Source of the DNA: Marinoscillum furvescens DSM 4134
GTDB lineage: Bacteria > Bacteroidota > Bacteroidia > Cytophagales > Cyclobacteriaceae
NCBI RefSeq assembly: GCF_003386095.1
Contig: NZ_QREG01000001.1
Span: forward strand, 496,001-560,000
Length of the DNA: 64,000 nucleotides
Direction: 5' to 3'
Shown: piece after piece, positions 18,085 through 29,148 of the stretch
Position numbering within the stretch: the first letter of the stretch is position 1
Layout of the letters: every line of letters starts with the position of its first letter
Notes under the pieces: model-generated
What the model saw: only the letters and a program-made list of their open reading frames with translations
Database searches by the model: none
Told to the model about the DNA's origin: nothing
Program-made: the position numbers and the translations under genes

Positions 18085-18678
18085 ATGACCTTAGGCCCTA
18101 CTTTTCTGGAAACCATCTGCGCAGTAGACCACACCTACCCGCTGCTCGCATACCATCAGCAGCGTCTGGCACAGACCTATCGTCATTTTTTTGGAGGCAC
18201 ACCACCACAGCTGACGGACCATCTGCCGGAGCCTGCCAAAAGCAAGCACAAGGTACGAGTACACTATGGAGCTGACCATTTGGATGTTACCTCCACCCCC
18301 TATACCAACCGGCAAATACAGCAGATAAAAACAATAACCGCCACCCCATCACTGACCTACACTTACAAATATGCGCATCGAGAAGACCTGGAGTCTCTTT
18401 TTGCCCAACGTGGCAATGCCGACGAAATACTCATCATAAAAAACCAGCTGCTAACCGATAGCTTCTATGCCAACATCGCGCTATGGGACGGATCCCACTG
18501 GTACACCCCAGCACACTGCCTACTCAATGGCGTACGCAGGCAGGCGCTACTAGAAGCAGGACGTATTATATCCTGCCCGCTTAGCGTAAGCGACCTCACT
18601 TCTTTTCAGAAAATCAGTTTTATCAGTGGCATGCTAGAGCTGGATGAGGTATCAGCGCCAGTATCAGCAATCAGCTAG
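18085..18678 (+). CDS. Aminotransferase class IV (PabC-like, aminodeoxychorismate lyase candidate)
   Basis: PLP-dependent fold IV enzyme expected to release pyruvate from aminodeoxychorismate to give 4-aminobenzoate. At 197 residues it is clearly shorter than the usual 270, mainly at the N-terminus (it starts MTLGPTFLETICAVD). The likely PLP lysine is Lys95 in YTYKYAHRED; GNADEILIIKN and LTDSFYANIALWDG match the class IV pattern with the substrate-side Glu replaced by Asp; LLNGVRRQALLE follows. Start chosen at 18085 because it lies 10 bp after pabB; a frame start further up would overlap pabB. Its stop overlaps that of the convergent SiaC-like gene by 8 bp. Confidence 0.82.
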   Translation: MTLGPTFLETICAVDHTYPLLAYHQQRLAQTYRHFFGGTPPQLTDHLPEPAKSKHKVRVHYGADHLDVTSTPYTNRQIQQIKTITATPSLTYTYKYAHREDLESLFAQRGNADEILIIKNQLLTDSFYANIALWDGSHWYTPAHCLLNGVRRQALLEAGRIISCPLSVSDLTSFQKISFISGMLELDEVSAPVSAIS

Positions 18679-19111
18679 CCAGGCAGAGCATCCGCACCGG
18701 ATACGATAGCTCCAGTACAGTAAACACCTCTCTGCCCGTAAAGTAAATCGGATGGGTTTCATCTTTGGAAAACCAGTCGAGAGCTATGTCTGCACCATTT
18801 TTAGACTCCTCCTCCAGGCGATTAAAAAACTCCATTAGTAGAAAGACAGAGTCGTGATTGATTTCATCGTAAATCAATGAAACCCGAAGCTTGTTGGCTT
18901 GCTTGAGGCCACCGAGTACATGATGAAAGATCCGCCGGTAAAAAGGCCTGATAGTGGCTCGTGTGGATGTACCGCGAATTACCAACGTGGAGTTGTGCAG
19001 CGTATAGCTTACATGCGGTGTTGAGGTTGTTGGGTCGATGATCAGATCACCTGCAGGTGCCACCACTGGCGCCTGTCTGGATGACAAAAAATCCTGCTCA
19101 AAGCTACTCAT
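18671..19111 (-). CDS. SiaC-like (DUF1987) protein, paralogue 1
   Basis: A 146-residue protein of the SiaC/DUF1987 type, small STAS-like proteins that in Pseudomonas bind a diguanylate cyclase and are switched by Thr phosphorylation. The core TPHVSYTLHNSTLVIRG, then FYRRIFHHVLGG, LRVSLIYDEINHDSVFLLMEFFNRLE and ADIALDWFSKDE follows the family order of strands and helices. At the position that aligns with the phosphorylated Thr it has His86, with Ser88 two residues on. A 30-residue N-terminal extension precedes the core. It is the most downstream of four paralogues and is preceded by a 24-codon frame ending 9 bp upstream. Confidence 0.7.
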   Translation of the reverse strand: MSSFEQDFLSSRQAPVVAPAGDLIIDPTTSTPHVSYTLHNSTLVIRGTSTRATIRPFYRRIFHHVLGGLKQANKLRVSLIYDEINHDSVFLLMEFFNRLEEESKNGADIALDWFSKDETHPIYFTGREVFTVLELSYPVRMLCLAS

Positions 19112-19120
19112 AGTTAGGTA

Positions 19121-19195
19121 TTAGAAGTTACTGGCCAGTGACAGCACATACAGCACCACTGCTGCTATCCCTGCCGTTTTTATCATTCGTTTCAT
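19121..19195 (-). CDS. Possible 24-residue hydrophobic peptide upstream of SiaC-like gene 1
   Basis: ATG at 19193-19195, stop TAA at 19121-19123. The peptide has a basic start (MKRMIKTAG) and one hydrophobic stretch (IAAVVLYVLSLASNF), the size of a single membrane helix. It ends 9 bp before the SiaC-like start, close enough for translational coupling. It could be a small membrane protein, a leader peptide or chance. Length alone gives no statistical support. Confidence 0.35.
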   Translation of the reverse strand: MKRMIKTAGIAAVVLYVLSLASNF

Positions 19196-19432
19196 GTGAG
19201 TAGTTTTTTTTCCAAGCCTCCAGTGCAATATCCGTCGGTTTCTCGCTAGATGGTCAACTCGCTTCATACCTCCATAGCAATTGCACGGTGCTTTTTCCAG
19301 TTCTAAATATTTTTAAAGTTAGCTGGCATGTCAGACCTACGTGAGCGTATTATACGGATATTGCATAAATAAGCATTTCTCGTAGTTGCATAGGCAATTC
19401 TCTGATTCCAACTGGTCGCACGCTAAAAATAA
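19196..19432. repeat. Intergenic region with a spaced 12-bp inverted repeat
   Basis: No gene is seen here. TGCAATATCCGT at 19224-19235 is repeated in inverse orientation as ACGGATATTGCA at 19354-19365. The second copy abuts a short palindrome CGTAT-T-ATACG at 19346-19356. The two copies may be binding sites of one regulator upstream of the 24-codon frame and SiaC-like gene 1. No clear -7 box was found; TAACTTTA near 19316 on the minus strand is a near match. Confidence 0.35.
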
Positions 19433-19460
19433 GGGGAGCCGCGCCATGCGCATACTCCCC
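19433..19460 (-). terminator. Terminator of SiaC-like gene 2
   Basis: GGGGAG at 19433-19438 pairs with CTCCCC at 19455-19460; on the minus strand the stem is followed by TTATTTTTAG. It lies 45 bp past the stop of the gene at 19505-19921. Confidence 0.6.
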
Positions 19461-19504
19461 TCCGCTCAATTCACCGCTAAAAAGAGCCTCGTCTCCTGGT
19501 TGGG

Positions 19505-19921
19505 TTACCTGGTTTTAAAATCAAAGTCGAGCCCGTAGATATCCTGAAAATCCATTCCTGTCTCGATCATCTCTATGTTGTCGTACGTTGTTATCCATGC
19601 CACATACACTTCTTTGCCCATAGCTGCAGCTTTCCCCAGCACTTTGAATACCTCAAAAAGCAAACTAGAACTGATAGTATTTAGCCTGTTAAACTGCACC
19701 TCCACTTTGAGTTTATTCAGCTCAGACGCATCAGATTTAAACTGGTCTACTACAGCCGTGCAAAGCTCCTCCATGTTTACACCAGCGGTGGTTTCAGCAA
19801 TAGTCAGACACTGTGCATGACGATCGTAGTGCACATAAGGTGTAGCGCGTCTGATCTTAGATGCGTCCAGGATTTCGGCTAATGCTGGATAAAGTACTGG
19901 GTTTTGGGCTGTAGACTGCAT
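19505..19921 (-). CDS. SiaC-like (DUF1987) protein, paralogue 2, with canonical phospho-Thr position
   Basis: A 138-residue SiaC/DUF1987-type protein. It is the member closest to the family pattern: ATPYVHYDRHAQCLTIAE, LKVEVQFNRLNTISSSLLFEV, then GKEVYVAWITTYDNIEMIETGMDFQDIYGLDFDF, which matches the family ending in which an acidic helix precedes a short final strand. In the segment LNTISSSLLFEVF, Thr82 aligns with the Thr that is phosphorylated in Pseudomonas SiaC. It has its own promoter (20043-20081) and terminator (19433-19460), so it is a single-gene unit. No SiaA phosphatase, SiaB kinase or cyclase gene is nearby. Confidence 0.82.
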   Translation of the reverse strand: MQSTAQNPVLYPALAEILDASKIRRATPYVHYDRHAQCLTIAETTAGVNMEELCTAVVDQFKSDASELNKLKVEVQFNRLNTISSSLLFEVFKVLGKAAAMGKEVYVAWITTYDNIEMIETGMDFQDIYGLDFDFKTR

Positions 19922-20042
19922 AATTCTTACGGTTTAATAGTTCTTTAGTCAAATAAATAAAGTCGGCCGGGTAAGAATGGTCCGTGGGAGCGAACCTGCA
20001 TTGGGAAGGTGAAGCCTGAGTGTTGGTGACTTCTTATGTATA

Positions 20043-20081
20043 CAAAGGTGGGGAGAATGCGCTACCCTGGTAAGGGCATAA
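20043..20081 (-). promoter_or_regulatory. Promoter of SiaC-like gene 2 (shared architecture)
   Basis: On the minus strand the -7 box CACCTTTG (20043-20050) fits xAnnTTTG. Counting from its upstream edge, the element TTATGCCCTTACC (20069-20081) ends the interval at exactly 31 nt, the same as in two neighbouring promoters (20679-20717, 21853-21891). Confidence 0.55.
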
Positions 20082-20099
20082 TGCTTAATTAGGAAAAAT

Positions 20100-20134
20100 A
20101 GGTGGATCACCTACTAATGCTGAGCGATCCACCT
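20100..20134 (-). terminator. Terminator of SiaC-like gene 3
   Basis: AGGTGGATC at 20100-20108 pairs perfectly with GATCCACCT at 20126-20134 around a 17-nt loop. On the minus strand ATTTTTCC follows. It lies 7 bp past the gene's stop codon and also carries the TCACCTA motif seen upstream of the neighbours. Confidence 0.6.
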
Positions 20135-20141
20135 GGCCCTG

Positions 20142-20579
20142 TTAGAAATTTTTAGATATTGTATTGAAAGGAATGTCAAACTGGTGGGCATACTCTACTC
20201 CCACCAACCTCATACCTTCATCTTTATTTCTGGAAAACCAGTTGACCTCCACCTCTCCTCCGGCTTGCTTTACTTTTTCCATCTCATGAAATACATCCAT
20301 GAGCATCACGATGGTATTGAGGCACAGCTCGTCAAAGGCGAGCATCAGCGTGAGCTCACGATGCTCATTCAGGCATTTACTGGCCCAGTTATAAATCTCC
20401 GCATAAAACTCCGGCACATTGTCCGATACGGACTTTCCTCTAATCAACACCGCCCGCAAGCGTTCGTTGAGCTGTACATACGGTGTTTCATTTGTGGCCT
20501 GGTATACCCGGATACCAATGTTGTTTTGGCTCTGGGGCTCCTGTAAATACTCAGGTATTAAATCTGATCGTTCGTTCAT
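20142..20579 (-). CDS. SiaC-like (DUF1987) protein, paralogue 3
   Basis: A 145-residue SiaC/DUF1987-type protein. Core: NETPYVQLNERLRAVLIRGKS, EFYAEIYNWASKCLNEH, LTLMLAFDELCLNTIVMLMDVFHEME, then GGEVEVNWFSRNKDEGMRLVGVEYAHQFDIPFN. The WFSRNKDE segment matches paralogue 1 (WFSKDE), so these two are closest to each other. At the phospho-Thr alignment position it has Leu87, and Thr89 two residues on. An N-terminal extension of about 30 residues precedes the core. It has its own promoter at 20679-20717 and terminator at 20100-20134. Confidence 0.75.
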   Translation of the reverse strand: MNERSDLIPEYLQEPQSQNNIGIRVYQATNETPYVQLNERLRAVLIRGKSVSDNVPEFYAEIYNWASKCLNEHRELTLMLAFDELCLNTIVMLMDVFHEMEKVKQAGGEVEVNWFSRNKDEGMRLVGVEYAHQFDIPFNTISKNF

Positions 20580-20678
20580 CGGTGATTTAGTTTGATGGTA
20601 AATGATGGTTAAATATTCGTACCACAGGTCGTGGCTTGTTGGGAAGAATTATGAATATCCGATAGGAACCGTACTATA

Positions 20679-20717
20679 CAAAGATGGCTTTAAACCAACT
20701 TATTTATAAGGGTAAAA
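20679..20717 (-). promoter_or_regulatory. Promoter of SiaC-like gene 3 (shared architecture)
   Basis: Minus-strand -7 box CATCTTTG (20679-20686) with the element TTTTACCCTTATA (20705-20717) starting 31 nt upstream of it. The 10 nt before the element (AAAATCAGGG) also match the promoter at 21853-21891 (AAAATCAGCA). The start codon is about 100 bp downstream. Confidence 0.6.
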
Positions 20718-20791
20718 CCCTGATTTTCAGCATTTAGGCATAAACCCCAAATCTCATAGGCGAATCACCTAGTAGCAGTTAGAAACAACAA

Positions 20792-20811
20792 AGCCGAAGT
20801 AAACTTCGGCT
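20792..20811 (-). terminator. Terminator-like hairpin after SiaC-like gene 4
   Basis: AGCCGAAG at 20792-20799 pairs perfectly with CTTCGGCT at 20804-20811, loop TAAA. On the minus strand a T-rich stretch (TTGTTGTTT) follows. It is 50 bp past the stop of the gene at 20861-21310. Confidence 0.6.
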
Positions 20812-20860
20812 CTGAAATGCACCCGAAGGTGTTTCGCCTAACCTAATCTATTTCTAACTG

Positions 20861-21310
20861 CTATATCAATTTAAGCTCAAGGTTGAGCTCGTATAATTCT
20901 GCAAAATCCATTGCCATATCCTGAAGCTTTCTATTGGATCTGTCGGCCATCCAGAACACCTGAGAGTCCGTACCCTCTGCCATCGCTTTCTTCAGTGATT
21001 TAAAGAGTTGGAAAAGTACTTTGGCGGTCTCAGGGTTAATGTCTTTTAGATAAAGCTCTACCGTAGTGGCTTTCTTATTGGTCAGCCCTTGCCGCAGCTC
21101 TTTTACAAACGGCTCGTAAAATGCCTCCATCCCGGCGCCCAGAGACACGCCTGCAATGTGCAACCTGGCCGATCTCCTGTCATAGCACACATAGGGGGTC
21201 TGTCCGGTTTGAGCTACTACCAGCTTAGAGGCTGGGCGTCTACCCAATTGCTGCATTTTAGTAAATGCTGAAATAATGGCTGTTTCGATGCTTACGGTTG
21301 TAGTGTTCAT
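20861..21310 (-). CDS. SiaC-like (DUF1987) protein, paralogue 4
   Basis: A 149-residue SiaC/DUF1987-type protein: TPYVCYDRRSARLHIAGVSLGAG, FYEPFVKELRQGL, TVELYLKDINPETAKVLFQLFKSLKKA, then SQVFWMADRSNRKLQDMAMDFAELYELNLELK. The DFAELYEL ending matches paralogue 2 (DFQDIYGL), so these two pair off. At the phospho-Thr alignment position it has Pro93, and Thr95 two residues on. It starts 51 bp after the stop of the exported protein at 21362-21826 with no terminator between, so the two are probably one transcript. Confidence 0.75.
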   Translation of the reverse strand: MNTTTVSIETAIISAFTKMQQLGRRPASKLVVAQTGQTPYVCYDRRSARLHIAGVSLGAGMEAFYEPFVKELRQGLTNKKATTVELYLKDINPETAKVLFQLFKSLKKAMAEGTDSQVFWMADRSNRKLQDMAMDFAELYELNLELKLI

Positions 21311-21361: not shown

Positions 21362-21826
21362 TCAGTTACGAGGATTCCAGCTATTGATTCGGATATTTAT
21401 ACCGGCCATGAAAGTAGGCCTAAAGGCTCTTACCCCTACATCTCCAAATACTTTTACATGCTGGATAGGCTCGAAGCTTCCCTGCACACTCGGTGTGATC
21501 ATAAAATGCTGATTATTGATCACTCCCGTACGGACCTTCAAGCTCACAGCTGCACTTCCTGATGCTATAAAAGGATAAGTCATATAGGCTCCGAAGAACT
21601 GGTTTTCTACATCTGCTGTAGTTCCTTCTTCTGCAAGAGCCACCACGGGAGAGCGCTGGTAAAACCCTCCGATTTCCACGTTGGGAGAAAATGCATAGCC
21701 GATTGCAGTCCCTATTTTGGTGTTTACTGTGGTACGTTCGATATAGTTAGTGACCGTCACTCCCTGAGCAGTGGCCGTAGTAAGAATGAGTGTTAGAATA
21801 GCGATTGTCAGTATGGCGTTCTTCAT
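21362..21826 (-). CDS. Small exported protein, probable outer-membrane barrel, unknown function
   Basis: A 154-residue protein with a clear signal peptide (MKNAILTIAILTLILTTATAQ). The mature part alternates polar and hydrophobic residues (TKIGTAIGYAF, VEIGGFYQRSP, FFGAYMTYPFI, VSLKVRTGVI, HFMITPSVQGSF, KVFGDVGVRAF, FMAGINIRIN), as in a small 6- to 8-strand outer-membrane barrel. No family is recognised. It is the first gene of a unit with SiaC-like gene 4 and uses the same promoter architecture as genes 2 and 3, so its expression is tied to them. Confidence 0.65.
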   Translation of the reverse strand: MKNAILTIAILTLILTTATAQGVTVTNYIERTTVNTKIGTAIGYAFSPNVEIGGFYQRSPVVALAEEGTTADVENQFFGAYMTYPFIASGSAAVSLKVRTGVINNQHFMITPSVQGSFEPIQHVKVFGDVGVRAFRPTFMAGINIRINSWNPRN

Positions 21827-21852
21827 GGCGTTTGTTTGGATTAGTTACATTA

Positions 21853-21891
21853 CAAAATTGCCATAGAAAAACGCCCTATATAAGAGTAAAA
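21853..21891 (-). promoter_or_regulatory. Promoter of the exported protein / SiaC-like 4 unit (shared architecture)
   Basis: Minus-strand -7 box CAATTTTG (21853-21860), 27 bp before the start codon, with TTTTACTCTTATA (21879-21891) starting 31 nt upstream. The rest of 21827-22140 holds a TCACCTAGG / TTTAGGTG / TTACCTA cluster at 21950-21985 and the sigma54 elements of the next gene. Confidence 0.6.
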
Positions 21892-22028
21892 TGCTGATTT
21901 TGAGGATTTAGGTGCTGTGCGAAATGGGATACGAAATATGTATTAAGCCATTCACCTAGGCTTTTTTTAGGTGATTTACCTACCCTTTGAAACTAATTCA
22001 AATACTTCTTGCCAATCGCACATTAAAT

Positions 22029-27708: not shown

Positions 27709-27942
27709 ATGAAAACGAGATTAGCAACGTTCGTCAAGGATAAAAGAAAACAGGCAGCAATGAACCAGGAAGACCTCTCCTTTGCTGCGGGAGTTGGGTT
27801 GCGGTTTGTCCGCGATCTGGAGCAAGGAAAACCAACGCTCAGGATGGACAAAGTAAACCAGGTATTGAACCTTTTTGGGTATGAACTAGGACCAGTAGCA
27901 CAAAACAGAGATGAGGAAAGCCAAAGTTCTGTATCAGAATAA
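27709..27942 (+). CDS. hipB: HipB-like DNA-binding antitoxin/autorepressor
   Basis: A 77-residue XRE-family helix-turn-helix protein. The HTH is in LATFVKDKRKQAAMNQEDLSFAAGVGLRFVRDLEQGKPTLRMDKV (residues 5-49), with the HipB-typical ending VNQVLNLFGYELGPVA. It presumably binds the three palindromes upstream and represses the operon with the toxin complex. It overlaps the next gene by 32 bp. In tripartite HipBST systems HipB alone does not neutralise the kinase; it acts with HipS. Confidence 0.9.
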   Translation: MKTRLATFVKDKRKQAAMNQEDLSFAAGVGLRFVRDLEQGKPTLRMDKVNQVLNLFGYELGPVAQNRDEESQSSVSE

Positions 27943-28225
27943 GTGGGCCGGAACGCTCACCGAAGACGAAGAAGGGTACCATTTCCAATATGAGGAAACG
28001 TATTTGGAAAACAAAAATGTGCCAGTAAGCTTAACGCTACCCCTCCAACAGGAGCCTTATCACTCCAATATACTGTTTCCGTTTTTCGATGGCCTCATAC
28101 CAGAAGGCTGGATTTTAGAAATCGTGGAAAAAAACTGGAAAGTAAACGAAAAGGATAGAATGGGCGTTCTCCTGGTCGCCTGCAGAGATTGCATAGGCGC
28201 AGTATCAATAGAACCACACGCATGA
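27911..28225 (+). CDS. hipS: HipS-like protein (free-standing HipA N-terminal subdomain)
   Basis: A 104-residue protein equal to the N-terminal subdomain-1 of HipA (VLYQNKWAGTLTEDEEGYHFQYEE, VPVSLTLPLQQEPYHS, LFPFFDGLIPEGWILEIVEKNW, DRMGVLLVACRDCIGAVSIEP). In HipBST systems this domain is a separate protein that serves as the antitoxin of HipT. It starts inside hipB (32-bp overlap) and its TGA overlaps the hipT start (ATGA), so the three genes are translationally coupled. It is not a broken hipA: both junctions are clean and the kinase has its own N-terminal module. Confidence 0.85.
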   Translation: MRKAKVLYQNKWAGTLTEDEEGYHFQYEETYLENKNVPVSLTLPLQQEPYHSNILFPFFDGLIPEGWILEIVEKNWKVNEKDRMGVLLVACRDCIGAVSIEPHA

Positions 28226-29148
28226 CCTGTCTTTACTGCTATAAAGAATCCGAAAGCGACTTTCACCCAGGGTGTAGCAAGAAATTGTTCGGCACCACTA
28301 CACCCCCTATCGTACCCTATACTAAAAATGATTTGCTCATCCTCGCCGAGCAAATGATCAAAGGAAGAGCCACCGTTACCGGAGTACAACCCAAACTTTC
28401 CCTCCACATAGAGAAACCCACCAATGAACCCGAAAAGCTAACAATCGTGGGGCTATGGGGAGCATATATCCTCAAACCACAATCTCCTACCTGGGCCGAA
28501 CTCCCTCAAATAGAAGATGTGACCATGCACCTTGCTCAGCTATCAAAAATCCGAACGGCAGAGCATTCACTGATCAGACTAAGTTCTGGAGAGCTCGCCT
28601 ACATCACCAAACGCATGGATCGAAATGCCGGAGAAAAAATCCACATGGAAGACATGTGCCAGCTGCTCGGCAGGTTGACTGAAGACAAGTACAAATCTTC
28701 GCATGAGCAAATCGCAAAGGAGATAAAACGCAGCAGCATACACCCCGGCCTGGATCTCGTCAGATTTTATGAACTCACCCTGTTTAGTTTCCTTACGGGA
28801 AATGCAGACATGCATTTGAAAAACTTCTCACTCATCAAAAATGAGCAGGGACACTACGAATTGGCTCCAGCCTACGACCTGGTAGCCACCGCACTTGTGG
28901 TGGAAGGAGATGACGAAGAGCTCGCCTTGACATTATGTGGTAAAAAGAAAAGACTCAGAAATTCCGATTTTTTAAATGCAATGACCACATCAGGCATACC
29001 CCAAAAAGCAGCAGAAAACATCCTTCACAAATATTCCAAGCTGTTATACACGTGGAAGGAATTCATCCATCGATCTCTTTTATCACAAGAGATGAAGCAA
29101 GCCTATGGCCAACTGATCGAAAGTAAGCATCAACAACTGTATGGGTAG
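28222..29148 (+). CDS. hipT: HipT-like Ser/Thr kinase toxin
   Basis: A 308-residue HipA-type kinase lacking subdomain 1; known homologues phosphorylate aminoacyl-tRNA synthetases or related targets and stop growth. It starts at the ATGA overlap (MTCLYCYKES). Residues 3-18 carry Cys3, Cys6, His15 and Cys18 (CxxC then HxxC), which looks like a small zinc-binding knuckle. The Gly-rich loop is TVTGVQPKLSL (51-61), with Thr51 and Thr53 where HipT/HipA carry autophosphorylated Ser. The catalytic segment is GNADMHLKNFSL (Asp196, Asn201) and the metal site is APAYDL (Asp219). All kinase residues look intact, so the toxin is probably functional. Confidence 0.88.
   Translation: MTCLYCYKESESDFHPGCSKKLFGTTTPPIVPYTKNDLLILAEQMIKGRATVTGVQPKLSLHIEKPTNEPEKLTIVGLWGAYILKPQSPTWAELPQIEDVTMHLAQLSKIRTAEHSLIRLSSGELAYITKRMDRNAGEKIHMEDMCQLLGRLTEDKYKSSHEQIAKEIKRSSIHPGLDLVRFYELTLFSFLTGNADMHLKNFSLIKNEQGHYELAPAYDLVATALVVEGDDEELALTLCGKKKRLRNSDFLNAMTTSGIPQKAAENILHKYSKLLYTWKEFIHRSLLSQEMKQAYGQLIESKHQQLYG

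Follow-up and report, generated by a model that had tools for sequence, protein, structure and literature searches.

Diverged SiaC-like genes next to a predicted outer-membrane barrel gene in Marinoscillum furvescens, and their possible role outside the SiaA/SiaB phospho-loop

The stretch of DNA analysed here, called the window, comprises 64,000 nucleotides of Marinoscillum furvescens DSM 4134 (contig NZ_QREG01000001.1, positions 496,001 to 560,000). It carries four SiaC-like genes, P1 to P4, in a row on one strand, and directly upstream of them a gene, O, for a small protein that is predicted to form an outer-membrane barrel. In our reading the array encodes lineage-specific, neofunctionalised SiaC-type (STAS-like) adaptors, which would stand mostly outside the SiaA/SiaB phospho-loop and would act in an envelope response in amounts set by transcription. 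We put the probability of this reading at about 0.5. Any SiaC-like gene is called S below; L-labels denote loci, G-labels related genomes and C-labels contigs of the own genome unless another is named. Residue numbers such as T68 are those of Pseudomonas aeruginosa SiaC. The genes are as follows.

18671-19111, minus strand: P1, SiaC-like (PF09345), with His in place of T68, no promoter-like element found upstream
19505-19921, minus strand: P2, SiaC-like, Thr at the T68 position, without Y65 and S69
20142-20579, minus strand: P3, SiaC-like, with Leu in place of T68, grouped by the tree with P1 as its sister
20861-21310, minus strand: P4, SiaC-like, with Pro in place of T68, immediately downstream of the barrel gene O
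21362-21826, minus strand: O, small protein, predicted eight-stranded outer-membrane barrel, leads the O-P4 unit at 51 bp from P4

All four open reading frames (ORFs) of the array are intact and belong to the SiaC family by profile, with PF09345 scores of 47.1, 61.8, 79.3 and 74.2 bits for P1 to P4 against a gathering score of 24.5 bits. An earlier sequence-only reading had described four such genes with little sequence in common. Its coordinates are exact, the family assignment holds for every member, and the pairwise identity is 21-30%. The fold was modelled for P1, the lowest PF09345 scorer of the four. The AlphaFold2 model, built with 33 relatives from the own and related genomes, has a mean predicted local distance difference test (pLDDT) score of 90.2. 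It has eight matches in the PDB at E <= 0.001, and every one is a SiaC chain (6kko, 6kkp, 7e6g, 6k4f). Template-modelling scores by target are 0.85-0.92 and root-mean-square deviations 1.4-2.3 at 20-22% identity, so that P1 is predicted to have the SiaC fold and not a different one. The tree places P1 and P3 as sisters (support 94/92; P1 carries a long-branch flag), and P2 and P4 inside one 25-row expansion clade (96/87) with no sister relation. Of the two motif pairs proposed earlier, P1 with P3 is therefore borne out, while P2 with P4 share a clade and do not form a sister pair. The proposed WFSxxxDE motif is inexact (WFSKDE in P1, WFSRNKDE in P3), and its W does not vary across the family alignment. 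DFxxxYxL is indeed present in P2 and P4 and is one form of the family consensus.

The residues that define SiaC as a phospho-switch are largely changed in the array. In P. aeruginosa SiaC, SiaB phosphorylates T68 and SiaA reverses this step (PMC7647112), and Y65, N67, T68 and S69 touch the stalk of SiaD, where phosphorylation of SiaC or the triple exchange N67A/T68A/S69A blocks binding (PMC8457831). Among 31 canonical SiaCs (the own core protein and those of 30 loci), Y65, N67 and T68 are present in all 31, and position 69 is Ser in 25 and Ala in 6. Read from an alignment of strongly diverged proteins, and thus approximate, the same columns in P1-P4 retain Y65 in none, S69 in none, N67 in three and T68 in one, with His, Thr, Leu and Pro at the T68 position of P1 to P4. 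Thr is found at this position in 16 of the 42 proteins examined (core included), and Y65 in none of the 41 non-canonical ones.

The partners of the known system are not found in the window, as the earlier reading had stated. Profile searches gave no SiaB, SpoIIE or GGDEF match within it. In the own genome (5.96 Mb, 62 contigs), PF09345 has 10 matches, 9 of them over the cut-off. The only SiaB-type kinase (PF19788) is found at C2:293460, directly upstream of the canonical SiaC and far from the array. Two of the six SpoIIE matches, a HAMP-SpoIIE and a REC-SpoIIE protein, are within about 5 kb of SiaB. For GGDEF the genome gave no match, while the same search was positive in 8 of 14 control genomes. 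Across the 59 genomes searched, own included, SiaC is found in 45, SiaB in 44 (43 over the cut-off) and GGDEF in only 2; SiaC must therefore have other outputs. SiaC matches outnumber SiaB matches 4-10 times in the window's genus and at most 3 times in the other genomes with both. Further SiaC-like matches of the own genome are found at L047 4770-5282 (C17), L048 2905-3327 (C38) and L049 461-856 (C25). Two SiaC-like copies are nearly identical and further matches lie near the ends of contigs C17 and C25; perhaps the genome holds a second, collapsed SiaC-like array.

These data bear on the proposal that several SiaC proteins compete for a single SiaA/SiaB pair and a shared output, and so form a multi-input switch. 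One SiaB against ten PF09345 matches would suit such a switch, as would the Thr of P2. Single N67A, T68A and S69A mutants of P. aeruginosa SiaC still restored biofilm (PMC8457831), so that even a Thr-less protein could be an always-on binder and shared partners could still be bound. To judge from the residues, competition for shared SiaA, SiaB and SiaD is nevertheless unlikely, because three of the four proteins are without the phospho-Thr and none has the Tyr or the Ser of the docking site. The genome has no GGDEF match, and the promoter-like element described below belongs to the array but not to canonical siaC. A switch by competition for shared partners is thus not upheld; the array may be multi-input in another sense, with units that are transcribed separately and a partner gene for an outer-membrane protein. 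A second alternative takes P1-P4 as classical STAS anti-anti-sigma factors, acting on an RsbW-like anti-sigma factor/kinase elsewhere in the genome. The SiaC fold does resemble an anti-sigma factor antagonist (PMC7647112), RsbS is a weak match of the P1 model (E 0.22), and six SpoIIE-type phosphatase matches are available. The loss of the phospho-acceptor in three of four proteins speaks against it, as does the surroundings of the array, beside which no anti-sigma gene is seen (a genome-wide search for RsbW-type kinases was not made). We regard this alternative as improbable.

In place of kinase, phosphatase and cyclase genes, the array is linked to the barrel gene. O has no Pfam match. Its model (pLDDT 82.7) contains an N-terminal signal-type helix (residues 2-19) and eight strands, and the best Foldseek matches are designed eight-strand barrels, OmpX and OmpA. 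By prediction only, O is an eight-stranded outer-membrane barrel with a signal-type helix. It is like OmpX/OmpA-type barrels in these features, and unlike them in the missing Pfam match, in its identity of 8-16% to the seven best Foldseek matches and 1qjp, and in its restriction to 8 of 59 genomes and to 13 loci of the genome collection. A profile search with the O family, run on the 59 genomes independently of SiaC, gave 19 matches in these 8 genomes. Within the genus, 15 of 16 O genes have an S gene immediately downstream in the same orientation. Three matches lie outside the genus: those in G019 and on C215 of G036 have no S downstream, and that on C165 of G036 reaches the contig end. A scan of 84,980 species gave the 13 loci, seven of which are genus loci already known; O-S pairs are also found at L080, L082 and L083, and L079 stops at a contig end. 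Upstream of the O-S pair at a syntenic locus of two genus genomes, a 422-residue protein is encoded (L051 7659-8927 and L059 7695-8963). It has a CHASE2 sensor domain in L051, and the L059 counterpart is assigned by size and position only.

Many leader regions of O and S genes share a promoter-like element that reads CNCTTATA, then about 21 bases, then CTTTGTAT. The element and the hairpins of the array are located as follows.

21851-21884, minus strand: promoter-like element before O, matrix training site
20677-20710, minus strand: promoter-like element before P3, matrix training site
20041-20074, minus strand: promoter-like element before P2, matrix training site
20789-20814, minus strand: terminator-like hairpin in the P4/P3 gap, z -2.56
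20100-20134, minus strand: hairpin then U-rich tract in the P3/P2 gap, z -3.72, absent from the terminator-scan listing
19431-19462, minus strand: hairpin then U-rich tract in the P2/P1 gap, z -1.95, absent from the terminator-scan listing

Five own-genome sites were used to build a matrix, with which 38 non-redundant O/S leaders of other genomes and 187 control regions were scored. Twenty-seven of the 38 leaders exceed the 95th percentile of the controls, and 24 exceed all 187. By the same scoring, the element is not found before P1 or canonical siaC. With a consensus made by eye, many leader regions score no better than shuffles. A search for sigma-70-type promoters was uninformative (5 found, 6.9 in shuffles). 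Terminator-like sites in the array region show no excess (3 against 2.9 in shuffles), and two of the three intergenic hairpins come from the folding of chosen stretches. A single four-gene operon was judged less likely than separate units, since elements and hairpins sit between the genes. O-P4, P3 and P2 are thus probably separate transcripts from a common promoter class. Rfam gave no match at gathering score between 18000 and 22500. Upstream of the element before O, at about 21920-21975, inverted short elements resembling AGGTGAAT/ATTCACCT or GTGAATCAC were seen by eye and left uncounted, and similar letters precede S in L047, L054 and L056. Directly upstream of P1, the only gene of the array without the element, lies a 24-codon ORF with a hydrophobic middle (19121-19195, minus strand).

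At some related loci O and S are neighbours of regulator genes. NarL-type response regulators adjoin O or S at eight loci, namely L050 of the own genome, where the regulator stands next to O-O-S on contig C13, and L057, L067, L070, L078, L080, L082 and L083. They share 47-79% identity, with a Pfam assignment for six. PAS histidine kinases are found upstream at L057, L070, L080 and L082. One more NarL-type regulator, 50-56% identical to the other eight, is found at L153 (G001) with the element behind it. In a possible mechanism, a PAS histidine kinase and a NarL-type regulator would sense a cue and turn on the O-S units. O would go into the outer membrane, and the whole would be part of a cell-envelope response. 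The S proteins would build up and work as dose-set adaptors, whose action is set by the amount made. Their targets would probably be dimeric signalling proteins, whose helical stalks they would bind via new surfaces. Two assignments were discarded in this comparison. In L053 and L061 the genes that converge on S had been taken by size for response regulators and are HlyIII by Pfam, and an 818-residue gene of L080, taken for a counterpart of the window's permease, encodes a glycoside hydrolase.

Several observations count against the adaptor reading, in addition to the Thr of P2 mentioned above. P1 is without the element, and the matrix test is not wholly blind, because the form of the element had initially been recognised by eye across all regions. 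For the exact pattern the own genome gave 14 matches, and for its reversed control 15; five of the 14 precede S or O genes (three in the window, and those on C17 and C38), and one lies where contig C25 ends. In five genus genomes a stricter form gave 7 matches and its control 6; five of the 7 precede S genes, one stands behind the NarL-type regulator of L153 and one falls within a large ORF. No regulator adjoins the window array itself, and regulators of other types adjoin S elsewhere (AraC-type in L054 and L062, LytTR in L066). O is found once without S within the genus (L098 in G004) and again outside it (L078, L081), so it is not tied to S everywhere; many S genes are without O.

The S genes of the array differ far more between species than PrfC and core SiaC do. 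PrfC, encoded near it, is 91% identical to the copies in three genus genomes, and the core SiaC is 86-88% identical in two, while the window S proteins have at most 36% identity to any S at the compared loci (L051, L059, L064, L065, L068). Such low identity, together with a copy number that varies between species, could indicate decaying or drifting paralogues with no selected role. All four frames are intact, however, and the element and the O-S pairing are conserved. The ratio of non-synonymous to synonymous substitution rates (dN/dS) is 0.07-0.30 in reciprocal pairs with measurable dS, which is saturated in most pairs. Decay is thus quite unlikely in our view.

The canonical SiaC loci point to a candidate for an output other than a cyclase. 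At 11 of the 31 loci (1.5 kb flanks), a coiled-coil protein of 160-204 residues with a hydrophobic C-terminal part is encoded directly behind siaC (L046 10336-10866 on own contig C2, L018, L020, L022, L023, L025, L026, L028, L029, L037 and L043). SiaD residues contacting SiaC include V78, R80, I81, S82, D83, R84, Y85 and Q86 (PMC8457831). In the core of the 176-residue coiled-coil protein of the own genome, I-T-R-V-S-D-R-L-Q, the counterparts of R80, S82, D83, R84 and Q86 are identical at the same spacing and the other three are similar. Of the 11 members, all have the Asp of this core and 10 the Ser; Arg is found in 9, with Lys in the other 2, and Gln in 9, with His in the other 2. Among 948 ORFs of at least 90 residues from the collected loci, a redundant set, 14 carry the docking motif; 13 of the 14 are of the coiled-coil family, with the own gene counted three times. 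Matches to the family, some of them partial, are found in 27 of the 59 genomes. In G044, SiaC and the stalk and membrane part of this family are fused in one protein of 324 residues (L135 919-1893). A related N-terminal stalk precedes HisKA-HATPase in L139 769-1797, L140 1492-2538 and L141 772-1770, with the motif Gln in L139 only, Tyr in L140 and His in L141; these are possible SiaC-controlled histidine kinases. A PDB sequence search with the family gave generic coiled coils only (best E 0.15) and did not recover SiaD. The docking motif is therefore taken from the residues that PMC8457831 names and not from an alignment, and the link to SiaD is based on this pattern of residues and on the fused protein. 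On this basis the coiled-coil protein is a candidate SiaC target in place of the cyclase in genomes without GGDEF matches. SiaC would then dock on a portable stalk, and in this order other outputs would replace the cyclase.

Taken with the array, this leads to a wider view, which we regard as somewhat less likely than not. Instead of being a device of cyclic diguanylate (c-di-GMP) signalling, SiaC would be a general adaptor that acts on a portable helical stalk. In the GGDEF-less Cytophagales, canonical SiaC would control a coiled-coil membrane protein, or elsewhere histidine kinases, bearing the SiaD docking residues. The window's genus would have added a large phosphorylation-free adaptor set with one promoter class and a NarL-type pathway, made together with outer-membrane barrels.

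Among known systems, SiaC of P. aeruginosa SiaABCD (PF09345; 6KKP, 6KKO, 7E6G) is of the same family as P1-P4 by profile and of the same predicted fold as P1. It differs from the window proteins in the phospho-Thr, which three of them have lost, in Y65 and S69, lost in all four, and in its setting, as the array has no adjoining kinase, phosphatase or cyclase gene. HsbA and BgrV are STAS-domain regulators of cyclases (PMC8457831 and PMC7647112), whereas the genome studied here has no GGDEF match. In the open-access literature searched by listings and the openings of abstracts, with most subscription papers outside its scope, no account of SiaC arrays, O-S pairs or the coiled-coil partner was found, and nothing bearing on SiaC arrays beyond the work on Pseudomonas. 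What appears new is a set of SiaC-family proteins that would work apart from the phospho-circuit by which the known system is defined. SiaC is known as a diguanylate cyclase switch, and the coiled-coil candidate with SiaD docking residues and the one SiaC fusion make other outputs testable. If our reading of the array is true, it shows how a phospho-adaptor can be duplicated, lose its phospho-site and become tied through transcription to an envelope gene.

Elsewhere in the window, a HipA-type gene is split into two overlapping ORFs on the plus strand, 27911-28225 with the HipA N-terminal domain and 28189-29148 with the HipA-like C-terminal domain.

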